Below are positions 9,463-55,786 of a stretch of 64,000 nucleotides of DNA, in pieces (within the stretch, counting starts at the first letter, position 1; every line of letters starts with the position of its first letter). The stretch is from Planctomycetota bacterium (lineage in GTDB: Bacteria > Planctomycetota > JAPUJT01). Location: positions 1-64,000 of the forward strand of contig JAPUJT010000132.1 in the NCBI GenBank assembly GCA_027296055.1, read 5' to 3'. The notes below the pieces were generated by a model that saw only the letters and a program-made list of their open reading frames with translations, was not told the DNA's origin and ran no database searches. Made by a program: the position numbers and the translations under genes.

Positions 9463-9647
9463 GATGGTCCGTTCCGCTCTGCTACGGTGTGTCTTCTCCC
9501 GGATATCCGAATTCCCAGGCCCGGGAGTCTAGCAGCCACTCCGCTTCCGATCCAGAAGGGGTTTGACGGCCGCGCGTCCGACCGGGATAATGCTCTGCCA
9601 TCGAAGGCTGATCTGTCCATCCGTCCAAACGAGCGAGGACCCGTTCC

Positions 9648-32914: not shown

Positions 32915-35383
32915 TTAGCCCGATCGGCGCCTCTGCCGCTCGCGAAGCCGCTTGAGGCGGGCATACAGAGTGCTCTTGGAGATGCCTAGCCGACGGGCCG
33001 CCTCGGTCTTGTTCCCGCCAGCCTGCTCGATCGCCCGGGTGAGACCATCCCCGTCCGCTTCCGGGCCTGTGGGTCTCTTCGGGGCAAGATAACGCCGGAA
33101 GGTAGTTTCTTCTCTCAGACGTCGGGGGAGGTCTTCGATCGTGATCTCCTTCCCCCCCACGGCGCAGGCCCTACGTATCGTGTTCTCCAGCTCCCGGACG
33201 TTCCCCGGCCAGTCGTGCCTGAGGAGGGCCAGGAGGACATCTCGTGGGAACTCCCGGACCGGTGAGCCTTCACCTTCCGCCTCCCTCTGCAGGAAGGTCT
33301 CCACGAGAAGGGGAATGTCCTCTTTTCGATCGCGGAGCGGGGGGAGAGAAATCGTGACCCCTTCGAGGCGATAGTACAGGTCCTGTCGGAACTTCCCCTC
33401 CTGGACCAGGTCCTCGAGGCTCCGATTGCTGGCGGTGACCAGGCGGAAGTCGATCTGAATCCATTCCTGCCCCCCGAGCCGACGAATCCCCTTCTCTTCG
33501 AGCGCCCGAAGAAGCTTCGCCTGCATCCCGAGGCTCAACTCTCCTATCTCGTCGAGGAACAGGGTCCCGCCGCCCGCCGCCTCGATCAATCCGGGCTTCT
33601 CGCTGGTCGCCCCGGTGAAGACGCCACGGACATGCCCGAAGAGCTCTCGCTCAAATATCGATTCGGGTATTGCCGCGCAGTTTTCCGATATGAACGGTCC
33701 GGACTTCCTCGGACCTTCGAAGTGTATCGCCCGCGCAATGAGCTCCTTCCCGGTCCCGCTCTCTCCGGAGACGTGGACGGGCAGCTGGGATGGGATCGCC
33801 TTGCGAAGAAGCTCGATCGTGCGCAGGAGCGCGGGGCTTCGACCGATGATCCCGAATGCCTCTCCCGACACCTCCTCCGAACCAACGTATCCCGCCAGAC
33901 GCTGCGCGGCCCTCTCGATGTCCTGACTGCGCTTCCGGAAATCGAGGGAGTTCGATAGGTGCCGGCTGACCCGACGGGCGAACTCGACGAGGAGGACCTC
34001 GTCGCTCTCCGAGAAGCGGCCCGGATCCAGGCGGTGCTCCAGGTAGATACAACCGAACGGTGCGCCTTCCAGCCGGATGGGTGCGCACAGGACCGCCCGG
34101 AGGCCAAGACCGGCCACACTCTCCGAATCGGCGAAGAGAGGATCCGTTCCGGCATCGTGGATCCGTATCGGGTGACCCGTCTTCAGGACTCGATTGGCGA
34201 TCTTCCGGCTGACCTCCCTTTCCGGAGATTCGACCTCGACATTTCCCCGCCCCCGAGCGCTCCGCACCATCAGGGAGCCGTCCGTGTCTCTCATGAGAAC
34301 GAATCCACGCTCCGCATCCATGATCTCCACGAGCATCGCTACCAGGATGTCGAGGAGGGCCTCGAGATCCCAGCCAGCCTCGAGCACCCCCGAGATCATC
34401 CCCAGTAGCGCCTTGCCCTGATCATCCCAGGGTAGCTCCTCGGGCGTCGCCGGTTCGGCCTGGTCGCCGGTGTCCCGCATCTTCTCCTCCACCCTTTCGA
34501 GGAGGCTCTCGGGGGAGGATGCCTCTTCCGGCCCTGTCGCGACCTCGGTCCTGCAGGTGAGGGAGCCGTCCGCAGCTGAAGGGGACCGAAGGCTTTCCTT
34601 GCCGATCTTCTTGGCGATCCGACGGGCGATGCGGTGGGCCCATTCCGCGCCCACCTGGGGGAGGAGTATCTCGAGAGTGGACGGTCCACGGCGACCCAGG
34701 AGGTCCACCTCTCCCGTCTCCTCGCGCAGAAGCTCGGCAGCCCGGCGCATCGCTCCCTCTCCCGGAGCCCCACCGATACCGGCGATGGACGTCCCGACCT
34801 CGATCATCACGACCGATATCGGAGATCCCTTCGCCTCGCACGCCGACCATTCGTCGAGAAGCCGGAGAAGAAAGCCGACGTGAGTTCGCAAGCCGGTAGG
34901 CGAGTCCCGCAAGAACGAATCCGCTCCTGCCATCAGACGCGTCGTGAGATCCACCTGGCGCCCCAGAAAGGCGAGAAAATCCCGGCCGACTCTGCCGAAT
35001 TCCGCATCATCGGCGAATCCGACGACGAGAGCCCCGCGAGCGCGGGAGTGGGGAACCAGAGGAAAGGCGAACGTGGAGATGGAGCCGGCGAGATCCGGAA
35101 GAGCGCTCGGCGGGATCTCGATCCCCTCCTGCGGAAGGTCAACAAGCGATCGGATGTAGCGGGTCAAGGCGGGGTCCGGAGTGATCCCGCGCACTACCTC
35201 TGTGGCCTCACCCTTTCCCGGAGACACCGAGATGACGACCCACGAAGGGGCCACGCCCGCCAGGACCAGGTCGGCGGCGATATCCAGGGCCGACGCCAGG
35301 TCTCGGGCGGCGCCGAGCTTGCGAAATCCCTCGAGGAGCTCCGCTCCTCCCTGGGCCAGGGGCAGACTCATATCTTGATTCAT
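32915..35383 (-). CDS. Sigma-54-dependent enhancer-binding transcriptional activator with GAF and GGDEF-like sensor region
   Basis: Residues about 20-155 of this 822-aa protein form a GAF-like domain. Residues about 160-285 look like a degenerate GGDEF domain (SPTGLRTHVGFLLRL and, in place of GGDEF, GRRGPSTLEILLP). Residues about 325-490 are a second GAF domain. The AAA+ domain has Walker A GESGTGKE, the L1 loop GVFTGA (consensus GAFTGA), Walker B GGGTLFLDEIGEL, and the R-finger region RQDLYYRLEGVTI. A Fis-type helix-turn-helix ends the protein (NKTEAARRLGISKSTLYARLK). There is no receiver domain, so a small ligand may set its activity. A sigma-54 promoter and repeated sites lie in the gene-free region upstream. 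Confidence 0.95.
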   Translation of the reverse strand: MNQDMSLPLAQGGAELLEGFRKLGAARDLASALDIAADLVLAGVAPSWVVISVSPGKGEATEVVRGITPDPALTRYIRSLVDLPQEGIEIPPSALPDLAGSISTFAFPLVPHSRARGALVVGFADDAEFGRVGRDFLAFLGRQVDLTTRLMAGADSFLRDSPTGLRTHVGFLLRLLDEWSACEAKGSPISVVMIEVGTSIAGIGGAPGEGAMRRAAELLREETGEVDLLGRRGPSTLEILLPQVGAEWAHRIARRIAKKIGKESLRSPSAADGSLTCRTEVATGPEEASSPESLLERVEEKMRDTGDQAEPATPEELPWDDQGKALLGMISGVLEAGWDLEALLDILVAMLVEIMDAERGFVLMRDTDGSLMVRSARGRGNVEVESPEREVSRKIANRVLKTGHPIRIHDAGTDPLFADSESVAGLGLRAVLCAPIRLEGAPFGCIYLEHRLDPGRFSESDEVLLVEFARRVSRHLSNSLDFRKRSQDIERAAQRLAGYVGSEEVSGEAFGIIGRSPALLRTIELLRKAIPSQLPVHVSGESGTGKELIARAIHFEGPRKSGPFISENCAAIPESIFERELFGHVRGVFTGATSEKPGLIEAAGGGTLFLDEIGELSLGMQAKLLRALEEKGIRRLGGQEWIQIDFRLVTASNRSLEDLVQEGKFRQDLYYRLEGVTISLPPLRDRKEDIPLLVETFLQREAEGEGSPVREFPRDVLLALLRHDWPGNVRELENTIRRACAVGGKEITIEDLPRRLREETTFRRYLAPKRPTGPEADGDGLTRAIEQAGGNKTEAARRLGISKSTLYARLKRLRERQRRRSG

Positions 35384-37406: not shown

Positions 37407-37441
37407 AAAAAAAGAAGAGGGCCGGCTACAAGCCGGCCCTC
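37407..37441 (-). terminator. Rho-independent terminator of the SPOR-like gene
   Basis: On the minus strand, a perfect 11-bp stem GAGGGCCGGCT/AGCCGGCCCTC with loop TGT is followed by TTCTTTTTTT. It lies 25 bp after the stop of the SPOR-like gene. Confidence 0.9.
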
Positions 37442-37465: not shown

Positions 37466-38263
37466 TTAATTGGATGGCCTTACGGCGAGCTTGTAGGCGT
37501 CCGAGAAGGGAGAGTGCGAGTGATAGGTCAGTCCCTGGATCGTGTCCAGGTCGCCGTAGGCGGAGTCGTTTGATCGTACCCGGACGGTCCACAGTCCCAT
37601 CTGCGTCTGGTAACTGAACGCGTTATAGCCCATGCCCTTGAGGAACTCCTCGTACTCCTTGGCCCCTTCCTCGTCGTGGCCCGTCGTGACGCACTGGTAG
37701 AAGTGCGTGAAAGGCCTCGGCTTGGGCTTCTCTGGCGCCGCTAGCTTCTCCGCCTTGTTCACGACCACGCGGGCCGGCGAGCCGATCGCCACGGTTGCCT
37801 TGTCCACGGGCTTCGCCGCTTCAACCACGATGGGCTCGTCCTCGAGCAGGATGGGCGTACTCTTCACGGAAGTGTCCTTCGTCACCTGGGGTTCCGTCAT
37901 CACCGACGAGCGACGTCCGATGAGGAAGGAAAGGCCGGAGAAGACGAGGACAAAGACGGCACCAACGATAATCGTATCCTTCCGAATATTCATGGAAGTC
38001 TGCCTCTTCTGTACCGGCGTCACCTTGGGCAGGTAGGAGTGGGGCGGCGTGGAGCCGTCCATCCGCGTCGAGCCCATCGGAGAGAAACCCTGGACCTTCG
38101 TTCGATCCCGTCCTGCGATCACCGGATTCTCGGTGACGGACCGCTCGAACTGCGGCCTGCGGGTGACGGGAGCGGCTGGTTCTGCCAGGGTGCTCGAGCC
38201 GACGGTCTGCCGGCTTTGCTTGAAAAGCTCGATAAGCTCCAGGGCATGTCTCTTGTGGTGCAT
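37466..38263 (-). CDS. Single-pass membrane protein with C-terminal SPOR-like domain
   Basis: This 265-aa protein has a cytoplasmic part of about 90 residues, starting HHKRHALELIELFKQSRQ. One membrane helix follows (TIIVGAVFVLVFSGLSFLIG), then a Pro/Lys-rich linker, and a C-terminal region THFYQCVTTGHDEEGAKEYEEFLKGMGYNAF through LWTVRVRSND that reads like a SPOR domain. SPOR domains bind denuded peptidoglycan, often at the septum. The ATG at 38261-38263 has GGGGGAG upstream; the longer in-frame extension runs into a REP-like repeat. A clear terminator follows. Confidence 0.75.
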   Translation of the reverse strand: MHHKRHALELIELFKQSRQTVGSSTLAEPAAPVTRRPQFERSVTENPVIAGRDRTKVQGFSPMGSTRMDGSTPPHSYLPKVTPVQKRQTSMNIRKDTIIVGAVFVLVFSGLSFLIGRRSSVMTEPQVTKDTSVKSTPILLEDEPIVVEAAKPVDKATVAIGSPARVVVNKAEKLAAPEKPKPRPFTHFYQCVTTGHDEEGAKEYEEFLKGMGYNAFSYQTQMGLWTVRVRSNDSAYGDLDTIQGLTYHSHSPFSDAYKLAVRPSN

Positions 38264-38355
38264 GGCTCCCCCCTCATAGGTGAGTTCCGCTCTGAACTTC
38301 CAACTGCCCTGATTATCGGACGAATGAGACCTCGGCTTGAGGGGGGGGAGATGAG

Positions 38356-38410
38356 ATAAAGGGACACACACTTAATTGATCTGCAATTGAGTGAGTGTCC
38401 CCTTAATTAG
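38356..38410. repeat. REP-like hairpin repeat, family A, copy 3
   Basis: The arms are AAAGGGACACACACTTAATT and CAATTGAGTGAGTGTCCCC, as in the copies at 19.2 kb. The flanks differ (GAT before, TTAATTAG after). It lies between the SPOR-like gene start and the end of the second SPFH gene. Confidence 0.8.
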
Positions 38411-38419
38411 TATCCCTGA

Positions 38420-39931
38420 TTACTTCTTCTGGGTCGTCTCGAGAAATTTCAATCCCGCGACATTGGGTATGCCGGCCGTCCGCGAGAGGTCCGTCCAGAG
38501 GGTCCCCTCTCCGGAATGGACCACGCGGACGGAGAAGCTCGGAGACAGGCCCAGGGAGAACTCGTAGCGGGCGAAGGCGGCGGCATCTCCGCCGAAGGCC
38601 TTTACCTTTGCGGAGAAACCCTTCGCCTCGGCCTCACCGACCATCTGAACGATACTGGCCTCGGCCATACCGATCGTCCGGGTCCGTTCCGCCTCGATCT
38701 GGGCGATCTCCTCCTGCATTTCTGCCACGAGCAGTCGGGTCCGGGCGTCGGTCTGCTCCACGACCCTCTGGGCGTCCGCCTCGATCGACCTCAGAAGAGC
38801 CGTCGTCTGGGCCTCCACCTCCAGCGTCCGCTGGATGATCAGTGACTCCTCCCTCTGAAGCTCGGCGGCGCTCTTTCTCGTCTCCTGCCAGTACTTCGCC
38901 GTCTGCTCCTTCTCGACGGACACGAACGCCTCCATGATCGGCTCGAGGAGCGTGTCGGGGATCATGATCCGACGGATGAAGGCGGAGTGAATGCTGATGT
39001 TCTTCTCCTCGCCGATGAGGGTCAGAGCCTCGGTGAACGTCCTCTGGAACTCCTCCCTGCCCTCCCCCAGAAGAAAGTCCTTGGCCCCATAGGTAGACCC
39101 CTGCAACCGGCTGATCGATTTGGACTGTGGGCGAATCACCCGGTCCTCGATCGCATCCCGGTCGCCTATCTCGACCATCACCTTGGCCACGTGACGGGGG
39201 TGGAGCTCCCACTCGACAGTGGCATCGATGTCGATCGTGAAGCCGTCCACCGATGGGAACTCGATCTGGGCTTTGTCCGCCTCGAGGAACGAGATCTGAT
39301 TCACCCCGATCTCCACCTGCTGAACTGCAAGCTCTCCGTCATTGATGTAATAGTTGCCGGGTTGCAGGACGTCCCTCCGGACCCCCTTCTGCCCGTCCCC
39401 GGCGAACGGCCCGGAGGCCTCCTCACCGGCGAGGGCCGTCACGAACCCGACGAACCCCGCCTCGATCTGGGTCATATCGATCAGTTTGATGTCGTAGCCG
39501 TGGGGATTGAGGCGATGCCGTCCCGGAGGGAGGATCCTCCTCTGCGGGCCCTTCTCTCCCTCGTCGGCGAGAATCTTGCCCGAGGGAAGCTTGCTACCCA
39601 CCTTGGAGTTGACGATGCCGATTTTCCCTGCAGGTATGTCGACCACTTTGAACCGTTCGGTCTCGTAGAGGACGGGCCAGATGAAATGCCTCCCCTCCCC
39701 CAGGACTTCCTTGAGAATTCCCTTCATGCCCTCGTCGACGAGGAGCTGTCCTTCCGGGGCTTGATCCCCCGTCTTGGAGGTGATCACGAGCATCTCGCCC
39801 GGCTCGACGTACTTGAAGAAAGTCGAAAAGGTCAGCCGGGCGAAGATGAGAAGGGCGATCGCGACGACCACCAGGGTTGCCCCCGCCGCCCGGATCCGGT
39901 TCCACCATTGAGTCAACCTTGCTGCTTCCAT
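38420..39931 (-). CDS. SPFH/band-7 (flotillin-like) membrane protein 2
   Basis: This 503-aa protein has a membrane helix near the start (ATLVVVAIALLIFARLTF). Three tandem repeats of about 75 residues follow, each with the pattern GxxGxV…P.G..LADEGEKG..R.VL..GRH.LNP (best seen in the second repeat: KIGIVNSKVGSKLPSGKI, ILPPGRHRLNP). An SPFH domain comes next (EFPSVDGFTIDIDATVEWEL), then a long Glu/Ala-rich coiled coil, then a tail (AFARYEFSLGLSPSF). SPFH proteins oligomerise and organise membrane domains. It starts 19 bp after its paralogue and has a matching layout. The upstream in-frame ATG at 40150 lies inside the paralogue and is rejected. Confidence 0.9.
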   Translation of the reverse strand: MEAARLTQWWNRIRAAGATLVVVAIALLIFARLTFSTFFKYVEPGEMLVITSKTGDQAPEGQLLVDEGMKGILKEVLGEGRHFIWPVLYETERFKVVDIPAGKIGIVNSKVGSKLPSGKILADEGEKGPQRRILPPGRHRLNPHGYDIKLIDMTQIEAGFVGFVTALAGEEASGPFAGDGQKGVRRDVLQPGNYYINDGELAVQQVEIGVNQISFLEADKAQIEFPSVDGFTIDIDATVEWELHPRHVAKVMVEIGDRDAIEDRVIRPQSKSISRLQGSTYGAKDFLLGEGREEFQRTFTEALTLIGEEKNISIHSAFIRRIMIPDTLLEPIMEAFVSVEKEQTAKYWQETRKSAAELQREESLIIQRTLEVEAQTTALLRSIEADAQRVVEQTDARTRLLVAEMQEEIAQIEAERTRTIGMAEASIVQMVGEAEAKGFSAKVKAFGGDAAAFARYEFSLGLSPSFSVRVVHSGEGTLWTDLSRTAGIPNVAGLKFLETTQKK

Positions 39932-39950
39932 GTGTATGCTTCGCCTCTTT

Positions 39951-41477
39951 CTAGGGTTTGGATCGACCGGACTGGAGGTATTCCTCGAAGATATCTCCGA
40001 ACGCACCCTCGGTGTCGGCGAAGACGGAGAGGATGCGCGGCGCCACCTTCTTGTAGAACTCGTAGCGGGCGAACGCGGCCCCGTTGGGGAAGGCGACGAT
40101 CGATAACCGTAGGGCCTCCGCCTCCGCTTCCCGCTGGAAGCGAACGACATCGGCCGCGGCCTGCCCCCTTGAGACGATGGCCTTGGCCTCTCTTTTCGCC
40201 GCGTCGAAGTCGGTCTTGGCCACCTGGAGAAGCTGCTCCTGCTTGATCAGGGCCACTTCCTGGCGGTTCCTGGCAGCGATCTCGATCTGGAGCTTCTCGG
40301 TCTCTGCCTCGACCTTCTTCTGCTCCTGCATCACCAGGGCTTCCTGTCGCGCCAGCTTCTGATCCGCCTGCGCCTGGGTGAGCTGTTGCTTGTTTCGGGC
40401 AAGCTCCTCCTTGGCGATCTCCCGCTCCCGGATCGGCTGGGCGATCGCCTGAGGCGGCTCGATCTCGTTGACGAGGAGAGACTTGATCAGGATTCCGCTG
40501 TCCGCGGCCTTGGACCGGATCTTCTTGAGGACGGCGTTCTGGAAGGTCAGCCTCGTCTCCCCGCTGATGTAGTCCCGCGCCGGGTTCTTGGACCCTTCCA
40601 CGCGGCCGAACCCGCGAAGCATAGGGATCAAGATCTTCTGCAGCACTTCATCCAGATCCCCGATCCGGACGAGCACCTCGGGGGCCCGATCCGGATCCAC
40701 CGCCCACTCGACGATCATCCGGACCGTGATCGTGAAGCCGTCGCTGGAGGGAAAGCGAAGCGCCCCCTCCCCCGTCAGCTCGAAACGCTGCGACCGGGTG
40801 TCGACCATGTCCACTTTCTTGACGTAAGGGTTCAAGTAGTACTTCTCGGGAGTCAGGACCTTCTTCTGGACACCCTTCTCGCCCTTACCGACGAGGAACT
40901 CGTTGCGCGTCCTGGGGGGCGAACCCTCCAGGTTGGTCACGACACCCACGAATCCGGCGGGGACGACGAGCGCCCTGTACATCTCGACCTCATAGGCGTA
41001 CGGGTTGATCGCATGCTTTCCCTCCCGCACGATCTCGCCGACGATGCCCTTCTCGCCATCCTGGGCGGTGATCCAACCCTCCTGCAACCTTTCCAGGGTT
41101 GGGTTCTTCCCATACCGACGGATCTTCACGGCGAACTGGCCTGCCGGAATGATGGTGAACTTTTTTATCTGCCAGCCCCATTTGACCGGATTTCGGAAGT
41201 GCCTCCCCTCACTGAGGACTTCCAGCTGGATCCCCTTCTGTCCCTCCTCCGTGGCGATGATCTGCCCGCTCGGCAGGTCCTCTCCCATCTTGGCGATCAG
41301 CACGGCGATCTCGTTCGGCTCAACCTCGATCCGGCTGAAGAACCATTTCCAGACCCCCGCCAGCGCAACGGCCACGATGGCCGCGGCAATGATGACGAGG
41401 ACCAAGGTGACCCCTTTTCCGGGAGACCGGCGTGGTCCGCCGGTTCCCTGCGGCGGCCGAGAAGAATCGGTCTGCAT
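39951..41477 (-). CDS. SPFH/band-7 (flotillin-like) membrane protein 1
   Basis: A 508-aa paralogue of the following gene with the same order: membrane helix (VTLVLVIIAAAIVAVALAGVW), three tandem GEKG/NPY repeats, SPFH domain (RFPSSDGFTITVRMIVEWAV), long coiled coil (ARNKQQLTQAQADQKLAR) and a similar ending (AFARYEFYKKVAPRILS). The two are probably hetero-oligomers, as with HflK/HflC or prohibitins, although sequence and domain order differ from those. ATG at 41477 has GGGGGG 7 nt upstream; a GTG two codons earlier is too close to it. The kinase gene lies 76 bp upstream. Confidence 0.9.
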   Translation of the reverse strand: MQTDSSRPPQGTGGPRRSPGKGVTLVLVIIAAAIVAVALAGVWKWFFSRIEVEPNEIAVLIAKMGEDLPSGQIIATEEGQKGIQLEVLSEGRHFRNPVKWGWQIKKFTIIPAGQFAVKIRRYGKNPTLERLQEGWITAQDGEKGIVGEIVREGKHAINPYAYEVEMYRALVVPAGFVGVVTNLEGSPPRTRNEFLVGKGEKGVQKKVLTPEKYYLNPYVKKVDMVDTRSQRFELTGEGALRFPSSDGFTITVRMIVEWAVDPDRAPEVLVRIGDLDEVLQKILIPMLRGFGRVEGSKNPARDYISGETRLTFQNAVLKKIRSKAADSGILIKSLLVNEIEPPQAIAQPIREREIAKEELARNKQQLTQAQADQKLARQEALVMQEQKKVEAETEKLQIEIAARNRQEVALIKQEQLLQVAKTDFDAAKREAKAIVSRGQAAADVVRFQREAEAEALRLSIVAFPNGAAFARYEFYKKVAPRILSVFADTEGAFGDIFEEYLQSGRSKP

Positions 41478-41553
41478 GTTCACACCCCCCTTTTCTGATT
41501 AATGATTCGGTATCGGGCTCCGGTGCAACGTCCCGAGCCCGGGTCCCCCCTTG

Positions 41554-42660
41554 TCAGCCCACCCAGAGCACGAGGCCCAGGAATATGATCGCCACGACGA
41601 GGGCGAAGATCACCATGTTTCCTATCTGTCGCTCGATATCCTCCCCTTTGCGTCCCGAGATACCGAGGGAGAAGACGACGAACGTGGCGAAGACGATTCC
41701 GCCGACGAGGGCTCCGGCGCGACCGACGAGCTGTGATCGATGGCCGAGAAGCAGGACGAGGGCGATCACCGACGCCATGGCGATCCAGCGACCCTTCAAG
41801 GGCCATGACCTCTCCTGCGCCTTGGTCACCCGCTTCAGGAGCTGCGAATCTCGGACGGGCCTTCCCAGGGCTCTCAAGTCCTTGATGATCTCGCCCACGG
41901 AGAGGTAGCGGCTCTCGAGGCGCGCGCAGGCCTTCCGGTAGATCGCATCCGCGCGGGGGTCGAGTCCCTTCACCAGGTCCCCGGGGACCTCGCTCCCCAC
42001 CGGAAGCTCCCCGGTGAGCATCTCGAAGAAGAGGACGCCGAAGGCGAACAGGTCCGTTCGCTCGTCGATCGGCCCGATCCCGCTCTTCTGCTCGGGGGAC
42101 ATGTAGGCCAGGGTGCCGACGATCGTGGCGACCTCCTGGCTCTGCATCGTCTGGGAGCGGATGACGGCAGAACGGGAGGCGTCGATGACCTTCCCGAGGC
42201 CGAAGTCGGTCAGCTTGACCCCCCGGTCAGCAGTGAGAAGGACGTTTCCCGGCTTCAGGTCCCTGTGCATCACGCCCTTCTTGTGGGCAAAGCGCAGGGG
42301 CGCCAGGATCCCCCTGCAAAGGGGGATCACGTCGGAGATCGGCATCGGCGCCTCGCGCTCGATCCGCTTCCGGAGATCTTCCCCTTCGACGTACTCCATG
42401 ATCAGGTAGGGGGGCTCATGGTCCAGATCCATCCCGAGGGTCTGGACAATCGATTCCGACTCGAGGGAATGCTGGATCGTGCCCTCGCGTCGCAGGAAGT
42501 CGATCGTGTCGGGGTGTTTCGGGATCTTGATGGCGACGATCTTTTCGACCAGGTGAGCGTGCCGAGCACGCCAGACCTCGCCGAACCCCCCGGTCCCGAT
42601 CCGATCCTCGAGGACGTACTCGCCGATGCGATCGCCCTTCTCAGGCGGGCGGGCTGCCAT
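41554..42660 (-). CDS. Hanks-type Ser/Thr protein kinase with C-terminal membrane segments
   Basis: In this 368-aa protein the kinase domain has the Gly loop GTGGFGEVW (residues 22-30), catalytic K45 (VAIKIPK), HRDLKPGN (132-139), DFG (152-154) and the SPEQ P+1 region, so all catalytic residues are present. The activation loop is rich in Ser and Thr, which fits autophosphorylation. Three hydrophobic helices fill the last 90 residues, ending the protein in the membrane with no extracellular sensor domain. ATG at 42660 has GGGAGG upstream. It sits between the DUF3857 genes and the two SPFH genes on one strand. Confidence 0.93.
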   Translation of the reverse strand: MAARPPEKGDRIGEYVLEDRIGTGGFGEVWRARHAHLVEKIVAIKIPKHPDTIDFLRREGTIQHSLESESIVQTLGMDLDHEPPYLIMEYVEGEDLRKRIEREAPMPISDVIPLCRGILAPLRFAHKKGVMHRDLKPGNVLLTADRGVKLTDFGLGKVIDASRSAVIRSQTMQSQEVATIVGTLAYMSPEQKSGIGPIDERTDLFAFGVLFFEMLTGELPVGSEVPGDLVKGLDPRADAIYRKACARLESRYLSVGEIIKDLRALGRPVRDSQLLKRVTKAQERSWPLKGRWIAMASVIALVLLLGHRSQLVGRAGALVGGIVFATFVVFSLGISGRKGEDIERQIGNMVIFALVVAIIFLGLVLWVG

Positions 42661-42744: not shown

Positions 42745-45700
42745 TCAGGGCGTCGGCTCCACGCCGATTGGCCGATCATCTGCTTCGTCTACCTCGCGGC
42801 AGAATCTGACGAGGGAAGGATAGGCGGTCGCCGGCAGGTTCGTCGGGAGGAGATGCACCTTGCGCTCGATTCGAACCGTGTCCTCGTCTGGCTGGGTGTA
42901 GGTGACCGAGTAGGCGCCGAACAGGCTCTTCAGCACACGGCCCGAGGGCAGGCTCGTGACCCGGTATGGCCCCAGGTGAATCGTGATGTCGTCCTCCTTG
43001 CGAATCGTCTGGCGGATCACGATCGGATGGATTCGATCCACGCGACCGAGGAAGGCGGCGGCGAGTTTCATCGGATCGAGCCCGGACCGGATGATCTTCT
43101 GATCTCCTTGCTCCTCGACGTACTGCGGACACTTCGCCTCTATCCGGAACCGGAACGGAGTGCCCCGGACGGAGATCTCGGGGAGCTCACCCAGCGTCAT
43201 CGTGGGCTCCGGGAACCGGGCATTCACGATCTGCTGGAGGAGCCGCTTCAGGTTATCCTCGGGCATCTCCTCCAGCCTCTCCTTGATCGAGTAGAGGGAT
43301 GCCGCGCCCCTCGTCGAATCGACGACGCAACGCATCCCTCCCCCCTCCTCGAGCCAGATCTCCACGCTTTCCGTGTCCTTCTGATCGGCCCCCTCACCAC
43401 CCGGAACCAGGGTGATCGCGCCCCCTGCGGGTGAGGTGATGAAGGCCTCCCCCCCCAGGTACTGCTCGGGGATGAATCCGAACGGATAGAAACGGGAGCC
43501 CATCGACAGCCAGATCGGAGGGGAGTCGTCCGGTCGGATACGCAGGAAGGGCGTAAAAAAGTGGGATGGACCGGGACGCTCCCAATCCGGCTCGGGCACG
43601 AAGGGTCGGGCGGGCCGCGCTCGGACATAGTCGAAAGGCACGCCCGCCGCCTCGAGCAGGGCCATGTAAAGGATGGATCGATCCCCCGCCTTCTCGAGGA
43701 GCACCTGGTGCGCCTCTCCGGCGGGACCGCTCCTCTTGATCGTCTCGTTGACGTAGTCATAGAGGACGCGCGCCCGCTCCAGACTTGTCTCCACTCCCTC
43801 GACCGCTTCCCTCGCCGCTTCTCGAAGCGCGCTGGTCAAACGGGTGCGTCCCAGAACACTCTCCCGGTACTGATCGTTCACGTCGGCCCATTCCCCGCTC
43901 TGGTAGAGCCGGACCGAGGGGAGGTGCTCGTCCGGCGCGGGCATCCAGAGCTCCGGCTCGACTCGACCCATCTCTCGAGCCTCGTACAGCAAGACCTTTT
44001 CGTCCCCTTCCTCGATGATGCGCGGCTCGAAGGGGAGGTGCTTCTCCAGCTTCTGGACATCGAAGCCGCGAGGAACGATGACGACGAGCCTCGAGAGGAG
44101 ATACGGCTCCTCGTACGATGGGTCCTGGAAGTAGAACGGGCCCCAGTCGAATCCGGATCGGGGGCGGGCGAGATCGCGCCGCCACTTTGCCTCCACGACC
44201 GCCCCGGGTTCCAGCCCGGGCAGGTGAAACTCCCGCCCCGTGGATGTCCGGATCGGCTCGAGGACCTCACCATCCGGCGTGATCGTCCGGATCTCGAGGA
44301 TCTCCCCCCGGGGATAGTGAGTCTTCACCTGCTCTTTCCCCTCCTCCGTGAGCACTTTCGTGGCGACGTGGCCCACCTCGGTGGCGGAACCATCCTCGTA
44401 GATCTTCAGCACCGTGAGGTCCAGCACGCTGAGGACCTTCGATTTCGGATACGCCTCACGACCCGGAGCGGCCTCGATCAGCTTCCGGAGGTTCGGATCG
44501 TAAGGGATCTCGAACTGATCCGATTCCCCATCGAAATGGTGGAGGAGACGCCGTAGGCGATGGAGCCCCGGATCCACTTCCAGGGCCTTTCGGTAGTGGC
44601 GGATCGCCTCCTCTTCGTCGCCGCGGCGGCGTTCGATCTGGCCGGCCATCCGCCAGGGCGATCCGCTCCAGGGCTGTATCGATGCAATCCGTCGGATCGT
44701 CTCGAGGGCGGAATCGAAGAGCCGGGATCGCAGCTGCGCTCGGGAGAGCGACCAGAGGGTACTCGTGTTCACCGGGTCTCGCGAGAGAAGCTCCTCGTAG
44801 ATCCGGATCGCGCATCCGTACCGGCCCGTCGCCTCCTCGTAGGACGCGACGGTCAGGGCGGAACCACGTCGACTCCTGTCCGCCTCGTACAGCTGGCGGT
44901 AGATCTCCGCCGCTGCCTTCCGGTTCCCCTTCCTACGGTATTGTCTTGCCCTGAACTCGAGAACAGGCGCCCAACCCGGACGAGACTCCTCGAGCTGAGA
45001 AGCCGCCGCCTCCGCCTCGGTGATCCAGTCCTCCGCCAGGGCGATCCGGTGCAACTGGTACCGGGCCGACCGGGCATCGGGATGGACCTCGAGAAGCCGG
45101 CGCAGGAGCGCGATCGCCTCATCCGCCTTGCCATCGTCGGCGAGGCTGCTCGCCAGACCGATACAGGCGGGGGCGAAGCTGGGATCGATCTGAAGCGCAC
45201 TGTTGTACTCCGTCCTCGCGCGGTTCTTCCGGACGGTCGAGGGGAGGTGTGTCGCGCTCTTGAGGAGCTTTGCTAAGAGGACACGGAGATGCGGGGATCC
45301 GGGCGCCAGCTCCACCCCTCGCGACAGATGGTCCACGGCATCCGGCAGGACGCCCTGGGTCCAGAGGAGGAATCCGAGCCCCAGGTGGGCCTCGACAGAA
45401 TCCAGATCTTCCTTCAAGAGGTCGGAATAGAAAGTCTCCGCCCCCAGGGCGGGGTCGACGACTTCCGCCTCTTCTCCCCCCGCGGGGAGCGAGTGAAGAA
45501 TCCGCTCGTCGGCCACCTCGAGCCCGTCGATCGGAACCCCATCCGGATCCGTTATGCGGAGGAGGATGCCGGCCCGGCCTCGGGATGCGATCTTGATCCC
45601 GATCCGGTTCCACCCCGGGGAGAGTGCGATTCCGACCCCGGTTTCGTACGGCAGCCAGCTCCGCCCCCGGTCAGAGTCCGCGACCTGCCGGCCGTTCAGC

Positions 45701-46365
45701 CAGACCTTGATGCTCGACCGGGCGGAGACTCGAAGCGCCGCCGGCATCGCGTTCTTCACGCGCACCTGGGCTACCGCGTAGACGACGCCCGATGGCCTCC
45801 GGAGGTAGGGCGCGAAATCCAGCGGCGCGGTTCCGGGGACGGGGCCGAGAAGGCGCCAGGAGATGGTTCTGCCCTGGCTCGAAAACGTCTCGTCGAACGA
45901 TGGCGCCGGCGCCACCATGGCCCTCTCCGGCGGAAAGACGCGATCGTGGAGGGAATGGCTCCGCTGCCCGAACGTTCCGGCGAAGATCACGGTCCGGACG
46001 AGGGAGAGCTCCCTCGCCATCCGCTCCGCCTCGGCCGGGGCGCCCTCCGCTCGATAGATGCGGGCCAGGTGCGTGGCGGCCAGGGCCGCGGTGACTCCAC
46101 CTATCCGGCCACCTTTCCTCATCGCCTCCAGGGTCGGGCGCAGGGATCGATAGTTCGGATATCTCCCCGCATCCTTGAGGATCACTCGAAGGATCATCTC
46201 GGCGCCGGGAGATCCGGGCGACCTCTCGAGGATCTCCTTCCAGGCCTCGAGCGTCGCCTCATCATCCCCGCGCGCGATCTCGGGTATCGACAGGGCATCC
46301 AGGAAGGTCGGGTCGTCTCCTCCCGATAGCAGCAAGAGGGGGACGAGCCACAGGGCGTGGGTCAT
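42745..46365 (-). CDS. Secreted TPR/DUF3857 protein with degenerate transglutaminase domain
   Basis: A 1206-aa protein with an N-terminal signal peptide. Residues about 130-290 form a jelly-roll-like domain (SSIKVWLNGRQVAD). TPR repeats occupy about 320-640. A DUF3857 domain (about 660-850: VLKIYEDGSATEVGHV, GEILEIRTITPDGEVL) precedes a transglutaminase-like fold. The catalytic Cys region seen in the paralogue as FGDCKDKAIL reads here AGDRSIL (about residue 895), and the Asp of LDGTAEY is LSMGSRF. It is therefore likely to be catalytically dead. The gene begins 12 bp after the paralogue's stop codon. Confidence 0.88.
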   Translation of the reverse strand: MTHALWLVPLLLLSGGDDPTFLDALSIPEIARGDDEATLEAWKEILERSPGSPGAEMILRVILKDAGRYPNYRSLRPTLEAMRKGGRIGGVTAALAATHLARIYRAEGAPAEAERMARELSLVRTVIFAGTFGQRSHSLHDRVFPPERAMVAPAPSFDETFSSQGRTISWRLLGPVPGTAPLDFAPYLRRPSGVVYAVAQVRVKNAMPAALRVSARSSIKVWLNGRQVADSDRGRSWLPYETGVGIALSPGWNRIGIKIASRGRAGILLRITDPDGVPIDGLEVADERILHSLPAGGEEAEVVDPALGAETFYSDLLKEDLDSVEAHLGLGFLLWTQGVLPDAVDHLSRGVELAPGSPHLRVLLAKLLKSATHLPSTVRKNRARTEYNSALQIDPSFAPACIGLASSLADDGKADEAIALLRRLLEVHPDARSARYQLHRIALAEDWITEAEAAASQLEESRPGWAPVLEFRARQYRRKGNRKAAAEIYRQLYEADRSRRGSALTVASYEEATGRYGCAIRIYEELLSRDPVNTSTLWSLSRAQLRSRLFDSALETIRRIASIQPWSGSPWRMAGQIERRRGDEEEAIRHYRKALEVDPGLHRLRRLLHHFDGESDQFEIPYDPNLRKLIEAAPGREAYPKSKVLSVLDLTVLKIYEDGSATEVGHVATKVLTEEGKEQVKTHYPRGEILEIRTITPDGEVLEPIRTSTGREFHLPGLEPGAVVEAKWRRDLARPRSGFDWGPFYFQDPSYEEPYLLSRLVVIVPRGFDVQKLEKHLPFEPRIIEEGDEKVLLYEAREMGRVEPELWMPAPDEHLPSVRLYQSGEWADVNDQYRESVLGRTRLTSALREAAREAVEGVETSLERARVLYDYVNETIKRSGPAGEAHQVLLEKAGDRSILYMALLEAAGVPFDYVRARPARPFVPEPDWERPGPSHFFTPFLRIRPDDSPPIWLSMGSRFYPFGFIPEQYLGGEAFITSPAGGAITLVPGGEGADQKDTESVEIWLEEGGGMRCVVDSTRGAASLYSIKERLEEMPEDNLKRLLQQIVNARFPEPTMTLGELPEISVRGTPFRFRIEAKCPQYVEEQGDQKIIRSGLDPMKLAAAFLGRVDRIHPIVIRQTIRKEDDITIHLGPYRVTSLPSGRVLKSLFGAYSVTYTQPDEDTVRIERKVHLLPTNLPATAYPSLVRFCREVDEADDRPIGVEPTP

Positions 46366-46377
46366 GGGGGCCTCGGA

Positions 46378-49300
46378 CTATTCTTGTGCGCCCTCGCGGA
46401 TGCGAACGATCACCGCTTCCCGCCGCGCCCGGTCGACATCGTTGCAGAACTTGCGAAACTCGGAGTACTGATCCACGGGAATCCTGCGGGAGCGGATCGA
46501 GAGTGTTCGGGTGAAATGAATCGTAGCCCCATCCCGACGGGTCTTGGAGGTGTAAGTCCCGAACGGACTGCTGATATCGCGATCCTCGGGGATGCTGACG
46601 ACCTCCGTATCTCCCGGAAGGGAGATCTTCACCTCATCCACGATCTGGGTGGGCTGCGGCAGGATCTCGTCATGTTTGCGCTCCGCCAGGGAGGAGAGAT
46701 CGGACAGGCTCGCCGCGTAGGCGTACCGGAAGAGGGGGTTGTCGAGCGAGAGCAGGGAGCTTCCCCGCGGCGTATCCTTCAGAAACCGGGGAGAGGCAAG
46801 CTCGTAGCTCAGCTTCACCGGATCGACGAGGAGACGCAGGTCGCCCACCCGTGTCGACGTCACCTCCGTACCGGGAAGCGTATCGGCGTAGATACGCTCC
46901 AGGTCATCCACCCGCCGCTCCTCTATCGGCAGATAGGCTCGCAGGATCACGGCGAACGTCCCCTTCGCCTCCGACTCCACCCGGATCTTCGCGGAACCGT
47001 CGAGGGCCAGCTCGACCTCATGTCGTGTGACCATCCGGTTCTCTTCGGCCGGGGTCGTCGGGACCTGGTGGATCGATCCCCCTCCCTCCTCGACCACGAG
47101 CACCCGGGCGCCCTGGTCGGAGAACGGGATGACGTCCCAGGGGTGGTACTCCGCCGTCCCGTCCAGGAAGACCCCCTCCTCCCGGTCGGGGAGGGTGACG
47201 TAGGAGATGCAATGGTTGAAGTGGTTGAACATCGGCAGGGTGAGATCCTCGTCCCACCGGCTCCTCGAGGAGAAGATCAGCACGGGACGGGACTCGATCT
47301 CGATCTCCTTCAGCATGGTGTTCAGCAGGATCGCCTTGTCCTTGCAGTCGCCGAACTTGCGGGTGAATATCGTTGACGCCTTGTAGGGCTTGTAGCCGTG
47401 GACGCCGAACTCCCAGGCATCGTTGTACCGGATCTCCGTCACGACGAAGTCGTAGATCGCGCTGATCTTTTCCTCGATGGAATCGCGGCCGGCCACCAGC
47501 TCCGCCACTTTTTGCCTGATCGGATCGCTCGCCTCGTGCTGCGATCGGATCAGGTTGGCGTACCACTCTCCGAGCTCCTCCCACTTCTCGAAGGTGGATA
47601 TGTGGATCTGCGGGCTCAGCTCCTGCGCGGGGGGTCGCCCCGACTCCGACTCGAGCTTCGCCACGTCGGTCATCTCCCACGTGCGGATCAGAACTTCACT
47701 GTCCCCGTCCTCGACGCGAGGTTCGATGGAGGCGTTCTTCAGATGGACATAGAATTTTCTCTCCTTGGGCGAGATCAGGGTGTAGGAGATGCGTCCGACC
47801 GGCACCCGGTCCTGAAAGATGAATACATCTCCGAAGTAGTCGCCGAAGAACGACTGCGCCAGATCGTCCCGTCGGTAGCGGACTTCGACCACGTCGCCCG
47901 GCTCGAGCGATGGCAGGTCGACCCGGTGTGACGTCTGACTGGAGAACTCGCCCGATCGCCGGGATGATCTCGATCGGCCTATCCGCGCCTCCTCCACCGT
48001 GCCGTCCTCGTGGATCACCTGGGCCAGTTTCACCTTTACCTGCTGCTCGCCGGCGGTATAGGGAATCCAGTAGGAGTCGAAGGAGCGGGCGCCCTCATCG
48101 TTGCCGATCTTGAATATCTCGTGGCGGAACTCGTCGCGGGTCCCGTCCCGGTTCACTCGCACGATCACCCGCCTCAGGATCACGCGATAGGGCTCGTTAC
48201 CCTCCTCGGGTTCCGCCTGCGCCCGCTCCACGAGGGCGGACGCATCGAACGGATGGGCATCTTCGAACGGCGCCTCTTCCTCCACCTTGAATTCGAGGTA
48301 CCTTCGCAGGTCGACGCGATTGGGATTCAATTCCAGGGCGCGGCGCCAGACCCGCAACGCCTCCTCCGTCTCCCCCTTGCGAGACAGGATGTGCCCGAGC
48401 CACTCGTGGAGATCATCATCCTCGGGGGCGATCTCCAGCGCCCCCCGGAGAGTGGCCACTGCGCCATCCAGATCGCCCAGACCGTCCTCGAGCGTCGCTA
48501 TCTCCGTGCGCGACCGGATCCGGAACGGCCGCAGCCTGGTCGCTTCGCGCCAGCTGTCCACGGCCTTCTCGGTCTCTCCGACCCGGGAGAGAAGATCGGC
48601 GAGCCTCGTCCGGATCCCGGTGTGGTTACGATCCTGCTGGATCGCCATATCGAGCGCGGCGCGTGCCGCGGAGAAGTCTCCGGCGGCCTGATGGGATCGA
48701 GCGAGGGCTTGCAGGCTCGCCGGCGACTCCCCGCCCTGATCGATGATCTGATGCCTCGCCCGTCTCGCCTCCTCGGACCATCCGCGCGCCACCATCAGGT
48801 CGGCCTCCATGAGGAGCGCCTCCGGGAAGCGGGGGTTTGCCTTCAGTGCCCGGCGAAGCCAGATCGTTGCCTTGTGAGTGTTGCCGAGGGATCGCTCGTA
48901 GTACCGCGCCAGACGATAGGCGGCTAGGGCGTGCTTCGGATCCAGAGAGAACGCATCTTCCAGGGCCTTCCGTTCCTCGTTGTGATCCTTGGCGATCGAG
49001 TATTTCTCGTCCTCCCGGAGGGCCCGCGAGTGATAGTAGGCGAAGATCGCGTTCTCCGGCTCGATCTCCCTCGCCCGCTTGAAGAGTTCACGATCCGTGT
49101 GATCCTCCTCCCCCCCCGGCTGTCGCGAGAGGTGCAAGAACCCGAGCCGGAAGAGATCCGTCGCGTCCTCCTCCTCTCCATCCCGCCTGCGGAGCATCTC
49201 CATCGCCCCGGACTTGAACGTGACCGTCTCGGTCCCCTCATCGGCGGGCGGAACCTCCTCCGGGGATGTCGAGATCTGGATCCCCTGGAGGGGGTGCCCA

Positions 49301-50196
49301 TCGGCGCCGTGAATCCTCGCGGCAAACCGCCATGCCCCGTCCCTCTCCGCCACCTTGATGAGGATCTGGTTCCAGCCCTTCCGGAGAGCGATCCCCACGC
49401 CATCCTGATCCCGACGCGCCCTTCTGTGCACATCCCTCTCGAGGAGGAGTCGTCCGTTGCACCATACCTTGAGGCCCTCGTCCGAGCCGACGCGCAGAAA
49501 GGCGTCTTGATCCTTCTCTGACTTCACGAACGTGGTGGCGTAGGCGAGACACTCCTCGTTCGGCCGGAGCATGGCATCCAGGTCCACCCAGCCGAGCGGA
49601 TCGATGACGGGAACGGGACGCCAGCCGACATCTCGCTTCTTGCCCTCGTAGACGGCGTCGCGAAGGAACTCCTTCTCAGGCGGGTAGGCGATATCGAATC
49701 CACCCCCCCGCTCGTTCTCGAAAGCCCCGCAGACGAGCCAGTCGGAGATGAACCCCAACCGGTCGGAGACTTCCCTCGCCTTCTTCTCGTCGCCGAGCCG
49801 GAGGTGAGTCTCGGCCAGACCCAGACCCACCCGGCCCCACAGGATCGGGTCGATGGCGTCCCTCCGGAAGACATCCTCCAGGGTCTGGAGAGCCTCGCCG
49901 AAACGGGAGGTCTGACGGACCAGCCGGAGGTACCGCTCGAGCAGATACTCGGCGAGAGCGGCAGCCTGCGACCCCTCGCCGGAGAGATCGGCAGTCTTCA
50001 GGAGGGCGTCCCGATAGCCTCGCCGAGCGCCGGCGTTATCCCCGCGCGCTTCCGCTTGGAGGATCGACGTCTCATCGAATGATGAGAGAGATGGGGACGC
50101 TGGGGGCGCCTCCTGGAGGAGGGCGGCCGCCAGGAGCACTGGAGCCAGGACCAGCAGGATGGAGGATGGTGGTCTCATTCGATCGCGCAGGCACAT
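46378..50196 (-). CDS. Secreted TPR/DUF3857 protein with intact transglutaminase-like domain
   Basis: This 1272-aa paralogue of the following gene has the same layout: signal peptide (ILLVLAPVLLAAALLQ), jelly-roll-like region (GLKVWCNGRLLLERDV), about eight TPRs, DUF3857 (VNRDGTRDEFRHEIFKIG) and a transglutaminase core. The catalytic Cys is C951 (FGDCKDKAILLNTML), with His in NHCISYV and Asp in FLDGTAEYHPWD, so the triad is complete. Such proteins are common in the envelopes of Bacteroidetes and Planctomycetes, with unknown substrates. The start is either the ATG at 50196, which has GGGGAT upstream, or an internal ATG six codons later. Confidence 0.9.
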   Translation of the reverse strand: MCLRDRMRPPSSILLVLAPVLLAAALLQEAPPASPSLSSFDETSILQAEARGDNAGARRGYRDALLKTADLSGEGSQAAALAEYLLERYLRLVRQTSRFGEALQTLEDVFRRDAIDPILWGRVGLGLAETHLRLGDEKKAREVSDRLGFISDWLVCGAFENERGGGFDIAYPPEKEFLRDAVYEGKKRDVGWRPVPVIDPLGWVDLDAMLRPNEECLAYATTFVKSEKDQDAFLRVGSDEGLKVWCNGRLLLERDVHRRARRDQDGVGIALRKGWNQILIKVAERDGAWRFAARIHGADGHPLQGIQISTSPEEVPPADEGTETVTFKSGAMEMLRRRDGEEEDATDLFRLGFLHLSRQPGGEEDHTDRELFKRAREIEPENAIFAYYHSRALREDEKYSIAKDHNEERKALEDAFSLDPKHALAAYRLARYYERSLGNTHKATIWLRRALKANPRFPEALLMEADLMVARGWSEEARRARHQIIDQGGESPASLQALARSHQAAGDFSAARAALDMAIQQDRNHTGIRTRLADLLSRVGETEKAVDSWREATRLRPFRIRSRTEIATLEDGLGDLDGAVATLRGALEIAPEDDDLHEWLGHILSRKGETEEALRVWRRALELNPNRVDLRRYLEFKVEEEAPFEDAHPFDASALVERAQAEPEEGNEPYRVILRRVIVRVNRDGTRDEFRHEIFKIGNDEGARSFDSYWIPYTAGEQQVKVKLAQVIHEDGTVEEARIGRSRSSRRSGEFSSQTSHRVDLPSLEPGDVVEVRYRRDDLAQSFFGDYFGDVFIFQDRVPVGRISYTLISPKERKFYVHLKNASIEPRVEDGDSEVLIRTWEMTDVAKLESESGRPPAQELSPQIHISTFEKWEELGEWYANLIRSQHEASDPIRQKVAELVAGRDSIEEKISAIYDFVVTEIRYNDAWEFGVHGYKPYKASTIFTRKFGDCKDKAILLNTMLKEIEIESRPVLIFSSRSRWDEDLTLPMFNHFNHCISYVTLPDREEGVFLDGTAEYHPWDVIPFSDQGARVLVVEEGGGSIHQVPTTPAEENRMVTRHEVELALDGSAKIRVESEAKGTFAVILRAYLPIEERRVDDLERIYADTLPGTEVTSTRVGDLRLLVDPVKLSYELASPRFLKDTPRGSSLLSLDNPLFRYAYAASLSDLSSLAERKHDEILPQPTQIVDEVKISLPGDTEVVSIPEDRDISSPFGTYTSKTRRDGATIHFTRTLSIRSRRIPVDQYSEFRKFCNDVDRARREAVIVRIREGAQE

Positions 50197-54994: not shown

Positions 54995-55786
54995 TCACTT
55001 CTTTTTTGGCTCCTCGGAACCCGCCGTGACGCGCGCTCCGCGGCGGACCCTCAGGGCATTCATCGCCGAGCCGTCTCGAACGGCGATCTCGATGAATCCC
55101 TCACTCCCGAGGATCGCCAGAGGCTCGCCGCTCGCCCCTTCCTCATAGCTTCGGCTGATGCCTCGAATCGTCTTGCGGCCCACGCGAAAGACCTGTCGGC
55201 TCGACGCGGGGAGATCGCCCGGTCGAAGATTCGTTATCAGGTTTCCGAACCGATCGATCCGGATCACCTCTCCCAAGACCTGTCCTCCCTTCCGGATGGC
55301 GGTGGGCAAGTCCAGGCGGCGGATCCGTCGGATGGATGGACCGACCCGTCCGAGGGCGATCCCTCGGGCCAGGTGGGCGGCGACCGGGGCGAAGATGTCT
55401 CGCCCATGAAAAGTTCGGCTCACAGGCCGAAGGAAGAGCTGTTTATTCTCGATCCTCGCCATCTTGCGGATCGGCTCCACCAGGCTGAGGAGACCGTTGT
55501 CCGGGGCCACGAAGAGCTGTCCCCCGGATTCGACGACGATGGGGCGGCGAGTCGTTCCGACCCCGGGATCGACGACACAGAGGAAGATCGTACCCCTCGG
55601 GAAATAGCCACGGGCGCTGCGGAGGGCGAAGGCCGCCTCCTGGATATCCTGCGGTGGGATCTGGTGCGTGATGTCCACCATCTGGCAGGACGGTTGGATC
55701 GAGAGGATCACCCCCTTCATCACGCCAACAAACGGGTCCCGGGTCCCGAAGTCCGTCAGCAGGGCGATGGGCCCCCTCTTGCGCAT
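54995..55786 (-). CDS. SAM hydroxide adenosyltransferase (DUF62 family)
   Basis: This 263-aa protein belongs to the family that contains fluorinase and chlorinase. Most members hydrolyse S-adenosylmethionine to adenosine and methionine with water or hydroxide. The expected catalytic triad is visible: Asp in LLTDFGTRDPFVG, Arg in VDPGVGTTRR, and His in FHGRDIFAPVAAHLA. The substrate-binding APDNGLLS and the C-terminal domain (RIDRFGNLITNL) are present. There is no extra loop typical of halogenases. The gene lies 63 bp after the large membrane protein of the cell-wall cluster, with Lys-rich last residues. Confidence 0.94.
   Translation of the reverse strand: MRKRGPIALLTDFGTRDPFVGVMKGVILSIQPSCQMVDITHQIPPQDIQEAAFALRSARGYFPRGTIFLCVVDPGVGTTRRPIVVESGGQLFVAPDNGLLSLVEPIRKMARIENKQLFLRPVSRTFHGRDIFAPVAAHLARGIALGRVGPSIRRIRRLDLPTAIRKGGQVLGEVIRIDRFGNLITNLRPGDLPASSRQVFRVGRKTIRGISRSYEEGASGEPLAILGSEGFIEIAVRDGSAMNALRVRRGARVTAGSEEPKKK

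Follow-up and report, generated by a model that had tools for sequence, protein, structure and literature searches.

The window analysed here, a stretch of 64,000 nucleotides from a Planctomycetota bacterium (GenBank assembly GCA_027296055.1, contig JAPUJT010000132.1, positions 1 to 64,000), carries two tandem minus-strand genes, SPFH-A and SPFH-B (A and B below), whose products each hold three SPFH1-type units ahead of an SPFH2 domain and a long helix. On the evidence of the predicted models, A and B probably form a hetero-oligomeric, inner-membrane-anchored and probably periplasmic SPFH cage with a heightened wall resembling that of the vault, a giant particle known from eukaryotes only; this is a reading we hold with moderate confidence. 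Computation establishes the repeats, the pairing of the genes, their descent as two clades and the predicted fold. The major vault protein (MVP) consists of nine three-stranded beta repeats (R1-R9) followed by an SPFH-homologous shoulder and a cap helix that starts at residue 647, as described in the available parts of PMC13347060 and PMC7618893.

Gene pair and repeat units

An earlier note on this DNA, made from the letters without database searches, had described paired SPFH genes, and both were recovered in tandem on the minus strand at that position. Pfam Band_7 (PF01145, cut-off 23.6) matches A with 82.6 bits (E=4.5e-23) and B with 63 bits (E=4.7e-17), and it matches 56 of 56 aligned family members, as expected of the SPFH superfamily. 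The two genes are separated by 19 bp; the start of B was set at 39931, the longest open reading frame (to 40150) running too far, into the end of A. The models, the structural matches and the membrane segment give both proteins an N-terminal membrane anchor, the SPFH fold and a long C-terminal helix. Their parts are as follows.

39951-41477, minus strand: SPFH-A, 508 residues from the ATG at 41477; membrane helix, three SPFH1-type units, SPFH2 domain, long helix and C-terminal tail
41334-41417, minus strand: A, N-terminal transmembrane helix, residues 21-48 (AlphaFold2/DSSP; hydropathy and charge)
41160-41330, minus strand: A, unit 1, residues 50-106, extra copy, overlays the MVP R7 region
40974-41156, minus strand: A, unit 2, residues 108-168, extra copy, overlays the MVP R8 region
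40800-40967, minus strand: A, unit 3, residues 171-226, canonical SPFH1 lobe, start of Band_7
40452-40796, minus strand: A, SPFH2 domain, residues 228-342, equivalent to the MVP shoulder (AlphaFold2 model, structural alignment)
40095-40451, minus strand: A, long helix, residues 343-461, equivalent to the SPFH coiled coil and the MVP cap helix (AlphaFold2 model, structural alignment)
38420-39931, minus strand: SPFH-B, 503 residues; membrane helix, three SPFH1-type units, SPFH2 domain, long helix and C-terminal tail
39818-39928, minus strand: B, N-terminal helix including the transmembrane segment, residues 2-38 (model, charge)
39647-39811, minus strand: B, unit 1, residues 41-95 (unit model, structural alignment)
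39476-39643, minus strand: B, unit 2, residues 97-152 (unit model, structural alignment)
39311-39472, minus strand: B, unit 3, residues 154-207, canonical SPFH1 lobe (unit model, structural alignment)
38957-39307, minus strand: B, SPFH2 domain, residues 209-325 (AlphaFold2 model, structural alignment)
38597-38956, minus strand: B, long helix, residues 326-445 (AlphaFold2 model, structural alignment)

The unit model is a hidden Markov model (HMM) built from seven proteins, and it finds three matches in A (residues 50-106, 108-168 and 171-226, with 81, 69 and 77 bits) and three in B (residues 41-95, 97-152 and 154-207, with 81, 80 and 61 bits), as expected from the three tandem repeats first read in each protein. 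HMMs made from one position alone recover the others (position 1 finds 2 and 3, and the reverse holds), so chance does not explain the repeats. The units are shorter than the roughly 75 residues originally given, with an aligned length of 54-61 residues and a period of 56-63. Because Band_7 starts at residue 171 of A, unit 3 makes up the first half of an ordinary SPFH domain, and units 1 and 2 are extra copies. The repeats had been placed between the membrane helix and the SPFH domain, which is right for units 1 and 2 and wrong for unit 3, with which that domain begins; the counter-proposal that they are simply the ordinary N-terminal lobe of SPFH proteins is true of unit 3, units 1 and 2 being additional copies of this lobe.

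Conservation was followed at 116 loci, comprising the window, 35 stretches from the same phylum and the best 80 of 187 matching loci from named genomes; 103 distinct loci were kept after dropping duplicates and loci without an A match above 400 bits. Three units are present in all but one of the A proteins scanned (102 of 103) and likewise of the B proteins (96 of 97). In a first set of family open frames exactly three units are present in 82 of 90, the rest having a unit split by an insertion or belonging to a distant subfamily with about four units. Several open frames of more than 800 residues were rejected as longer repeat proteins, being upstream open reading in GC-rich DNA, and extra repeats in long B proteins were likewise discarded, as the 888-residue B of locus L021 (6062-8728, minus strand) has a helical-looking insertion within unit 3 and no added units. 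This insertion is about 230 residues long and probably helical, and shorter ones lie at the same spot in unit 3 of B at loci L060 and L088.

Predicted structure

Structures were predicted with AlphaFold2 from alignments of 56 (A) and 50 (B) sequences, resulting in mean predicted local distance difference test (pLDDT) scores of 85.6 and 84.9, respectively; in the repeat and SPFH region of both proteins nearly all ten-residue blocks score at least 90 and the lowest 82-84. In a Foldseek search of the PDB the top ranks are shared by prohibitin, MVP, HflK/C, erlin and stomatin, and VIA-align, the second structural alignment of the models, separates MVP from the rest. Among the VIA-align matches listed for model A, all those to prohibitin, erlin, HflK/C, QmcA, stomatin and flotillin begin at residue 167 or later (HflK/C structures only from residue 169), whereas 10 of 10 full-length MVP matches start at residues 43-50, end at 390-508 and pair unit 1 with MVP 320-324 onward. 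The layout had been suspected to differ from that of standard flotillins and HflK/C, and model A supports this, units 1 and 2 being left to MVP alone.

Model A aligns with MVP 9r86 at Z 11.7 (351 residues) and with 7pkz at Z 10.6 (root-mean-square deviation, rmsd, 5.7; 284 residues), and the MVP R1-R7 crystal structure 3gnf covers A 49-228 (Z 9.2, rmsd 3.9, 136 residues). Model B falls in the same register, with residues 323-710 of 4hl8 lying on B 39-388 (Z 9.8, rmsd 6.0, 301 residues); four of the ten MVP matches listed begin at residues 39-40, paired with 323-324, and the other six reach into the membrane helix. Canonical SPFH matches to B begin at residue 142 or later, except for two stomatin matches at 116-117, inside unit 2. 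A 49-464 and B 39-444 overlay MVP 323-768 in a single register, and both predicted monomers have an MVP-type stack of beta units, three in number, before the SPFH shoulder and cap helix. The models suggest that units 1 to 3 occupy the positions of MVP R7-R9; that MVP residue 323 lies at about the start of R7 is our own reading, and it agrees with the R8-9 contacts at 383-492 given in the available part of PMC13347060.

Conservation and history of the pair

A is followed by B on the same strand at 100 of the 103 loci, and at the other three the contig ends 224-423 bases past A. This is the HflK/HflC type of arrangement, two paralogues side by side, here always with A first and traced to one duplication. 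An operon conserved beyond the pair was considered and set aside, since the largest cluster of neighbours, ABC-type ATPases, occurs at 12 loci with varied distance and strand. Going by name or kinship label, the 103 include loci from Planctomycetota or the window's own phylum, from Lentisphaerota (16), Kiritimatiellota (11), Verrucomicrobiota (11), Thermodesulfobacteriota (6) and Pseudomonadota (5), and from Candidatus Riflebacteria; Auribacterota, Fidelibacterota and Chlamydiota are each the label of one locus. Most are metagenome assemblies, and odd labels call for care. Of 392 genomes from the window's phylum, 85 carry the family at E up to 1e-20, counted together with single-gene relatives; among the 217 genomes with completeness of 90% or more and contamination of 5% or less, 37 do.

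A protein tree was made by a quick method from 83 proteins picked from the collected loci (35 A, 35 B and 13 single-gene), and in it A, B and the single-gene relatives each form one clade (SH-aLRT 99, 97 and 100, respectively). By this branching A and B split once, ahead of their spread over several phyla. A second tree, of low resolution (56 columns), was made from 108 units, taken from 36 proteins out of the 71 in which all three units are complete. Here units cluster with those at the same position in other proteins, across A, B and single-gene relatives, and not with their neighbours in one protein (3 changes vs 51 in shuffles), and the triplication is therefore older than the A/B split.

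Topology and proposed function

Lysine and arginine were counted in the 15 residues on each side of the membrane helix, some of the upstream residues possibly preceding the true start. Of 102 A proteins, 62 have more of these residues N-terminally and 20 have fewer; of 97 B proteins, 86 have more and 1 has fewer. This charge pattern, strong in B and weaker in A, points to an N-in, body-out orientation, as in HflK/C, with the body probably in the periplasm.

We infer that A and B would be two paralogous subunits of one hetero-oligomeric cage, like HflK/HflC and PHB1/PHB2, alternating in a ring, each anchored in the inner membrane by its one N-terminal helix and with its body probably periplasmic. 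The SPFH1 lobe, normally one beta layer on the membrane, is tandemly triplicated in both subunits, so that the wall between the membrane and the SPFH2 shoulder would be three layers tall and built like the upper vault wall (MVP R7-R9), and the long helices would close the roof, as in other SPFH cages. The interior would be taller than that of known SPFH cages and could leave more room for large periplasmic domains.

As to what such a cage might do, HflK/C binds and regulates FtsH, and prohibitins are discussed with mitochondrial proteases, according to the available part of PMC12624060. At locus L019 an 807-residue FtsH-type protein with AAA and peptidase M41 domains (9025-11448, plus strand) is encoded divergently beside A, its AAA domain starting at residue 375 after a long N-terminal part, and at locus L102 a second FtsH lies 4.3 kb from the pair. 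By analogy with these systems, and with the L019 neighbour in mind, we propose tentatively, and as something short of probable, that the likeliest job of the A/B cage would be to fence off a patch of membrane with its proteins and to gate the access of these clients to membrane proteases such as FtsH.

Alternative explanations

Several observations weigh against a vault-like cage with such a role. The predicted structures are of monomers only, and the topology is read from the positive-inside rule only, less clearly for A than for B. Clustering of neighbours at the 103 loci gave no conserved neighbour that names a client, and an FtsH-like gene is near A at only two of them, adjacent at one, which makes the FtsH link a hint. 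VIA-align Z scores below about 13 for repeats or long helices may reflect just a common arrangement, and those for MVP here are about 10-12; over most full MVP alignments the rmsd reaches very large values of about 34-70 Å, owing to the differing directions of the long helices. Searches of PDB sequences with profiles of the repeat region, the unit and the whole protein recover prohibitin, QmcA, stomatin, erlin and HflK/C and do not recover MVP; in the 56 members Pfam Vault is absent from the 25 most-matched of 79 families (E up to 10).

Vault family membership by sequence was set aside, as neither Pfam nor the profile searches support it. Neither A nor B matches Pfam Vault at E up to 1, and PF01505 is over its cut-off in 0 of 149 genomes of the phylum; its matches at E up to 1 are all below the cut-off, none is listed at the SPFH pair of the window, and control genomes give matches too. 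Since the monomer models resemble a piece of the vault wall and no sequence link was found, A and B are vault-like by model and not demonstrated members of the MVP family. Common ancestry with MVP and independent growth of the wall may each account for the likeness.

The best-surviving alternative is that A and B form an ordinary flotillin- or HflK/C-like scaffold in which the added units serve as spacers or interaction modules and do not stack as in the vault, the MVP match being a generic likeness between beta repeats. It draws on the canonical unit 3 and SPFH2 domain, on the missing sequence link to MVP and on Z scores within the ambiguous range of the tool for repeats; by sequence the closest protein is prohibitin, the lobe of which is also the top sequence match of the unit profile (E 0.15). 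However, in A only MVP covers units 1 and 2 plus the SPFH2 domain and helix in one continuous register, B, predicted from its own alignment, repeats this register, and the stacking is predicted at high confidence; in B the two stomatin matches also reach into unit 2. We consider the ordinary scaffold unlikely, though a credible competitor to the vault-like cage.

The earlier note had further proposed that the complex is phosphorylated by, or organises, a membrane Ser/Thr kinase directly upstream. The kinase with three C-terminal membrane helices is indeed present, and the features around the pair are as follows.

41554-42660, minus strand: Ser/Thr protein kinase with three C-terminal membrane helices, start at 42660 or 42702; a neighbour and no more than a possible part of the system
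37466-38371, minus strand: downstream gene of 301 residues, with one hydrophobic stretch resembling a membrane helix and a SPOR-like match at E=0.16 only
37417-37441: terminator-like hairpin after the 301-residue gene

The minus-strand order is a TPR/DUF3857 protein, the kinase, A, B, the 301-residue gene and the hairpin, and no promoter or terminator signals that convincingly divide the kinase, A and B were found at the locus. Directly upstream of the kinase, two large and mutually related proteins are encoded in tandem (42745-46365 and 46378-50196, minus strand); they contain TPR repeats, DUF3857 and a transglutaminase-like domain.

The kinase gene lies 76 bp upstream of A on the same strand, and at two other loci a kinase is directly downstream: at L020 after B, 36% identical to that of the window and with several C-terminal membrane helices, and at L061 with one helix. 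However, only 4 of the 103 loci have a kinase right next to the pair, at a distance of up to about 250 bp (the window, L020, L061 and L059), on differing sides and at L059 on the opposite strand, and the window's own genome of 5.26 Mb has a large set of such kinases, with 62 Pkinase matches, 56 of them over the curated Pfam cut-off. The N-in, body-out orientation would further put the kinase domain, which precedes its membrane helices, on the side of the membrane opposite the SPFH body. A general kinase partnership was set aside on these three grounds, and phosphorylation of the complex by the kinase, or organisation of the kinase by the complex, is not supported and very improbable. A lineage-specific kinase link is possible, and the short N-terminal tails could be kinase substrates.

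That A and B are instead separate homomeric scaffolds, sharing an operon only through recent duplication, would suit the existence of single-gene relatives with three or four units but sits poorly with a single A/B split before the spread across phyla and with their joint presence at 100 of the 103 loci, and we give it very little weight beside a hetero-oligomeric cage.

Single-gene, plasmid and phage relatives

Distant single-gene relatives with three or four units occur on Rhizobium plasmids and in phages, and four-unit forms were found only among them. A tblastn search with B gave 12 phage records, and repeat counts outside chromosomes come from 3 of these and from 1 of 27 plasmid records. 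The uncultured phage LR756502.1 (642 kb; L187:3001-4386) encodes a 631-residue protein whose SPFH domain is preceded by four clear units, two Vibrio phages (L188 and L189) have three-unit SPFH proteins, and a Rhizobium phaseoli plasmid (L190:2257-4296) encodes a protein with four units, one of them split, whose annotation as a 'flotillin family protein' conceals the architecture. These proteins share with A and B the same units before the SPFH domain and differ in being encoded by one gene and in forming a separate clade, the tree members of which come from the window's own phylum only. No close relatives of A or B were found in viral contigs, and structural matches to viral models identify SPFH relatives in many viruses. 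The SPFH part of A and B is also matched by PHROG family 200, whose name 'lipoprotein' seems misleading for what looks to be an SPFH family.

Comparison with described systems

HflK/HflC and PHB1/PHB2 are, like A and B, pairs of paralogous SPFH subunits with an N-terminal membrane helix, SPFH1-SPFH2 and a long helix, and HflK/HflC are encoded in one operon, as stated in the available part of PMC2636767. HflK/HflC and prohibitin likely share the membrane side of A and B (periplasm or intermembrane space), and they have a single SPFH1 lobe directly after the anchor whereas A and B have three stacked units. MVP resembles A and B in stacking several three-stranded beta units ahead of an SPFH shoulder and cap helix; it has nine repeats and no membrane anchor, whereas A and B have three units, a membrane helix in place of R1-R6, two paralogous subunits, a bacterial origin and no detectable sequence similarity to it. 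The vault itself closes from two half shells. Neither A nor B matches the flotillin C-terminal domain (PF15975) at E up to 1; 5 of the 56 family members match it, at best with E 0.012.

The small subfamily SPFH11a/b (Hinderhofer et al. 2009, PMC2636767) is described in the part of that paper available to us as a gene pair always adjacent in one operon, with a planctomycete and a deltaproteobacterium among its members, and it is in this respect like A and B. Repeats are not mentioned in that part, and the comparison is by description only. SPFH11b is said there to lack a coiled coil, unlike B with its 120-residue helix (326-445), if B is the counterpart of 11b. On this description SPFH11a/b may overlap with the A/B family.

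In the literature cited, vaults are without an established function, and no counterpart in prokaryotes is on record; the available part of PMC9778704 gives them as absent from prokaryotes, and that of PMC13100048 calls the MVP domains and repeat wall unique to the vault. Bacterial multi-unit SPFH proteins were not described in the literature searched, which was covered by titles and the starts of abstracts with most subscription papers outside the search. The available parts of PMC13174449, PMC9605863 and PMC10936438 describe no such protein, and that of PMC13086221 has no match for the words repeat, vault, N-terminal, AlphaFold or tandem.

The pair is a concrete candidate for the origin of the vault wall, the predicted monomers reproducing its top third. 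Bacteria and phages would then hold an SPFH lineage in which the SPFH1 lobe was multiplied to three or four stacked units, with A/B as a membrane-anchored, two-subunit 'half vault', and the eukaryotic vault wall might have come from continued duplication in such a protein, with the anchor replaced by further repeats; we offer this as a speculative scenario and judge it rather unlikely. The predicted structures would extend the known range of SPFH cages from one to three beta layers above the membrane, and A and B could serve as a simpler system for asking the purpose of a taller SPFH cage, with Pontiella sulfatireligans and Desulfoferrobacter suflitae as cultured members.

Other features of the window

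A minus-strand gene at 32915-35383 combines a GGDEF-like match, a GAF domain, a sigma-54 activator domain and a Fis-type helix-turn-helix in one protein, and a gene of the SAM hydroxide adenosyltransferase family lies at 54995-55786 on the minus strand.

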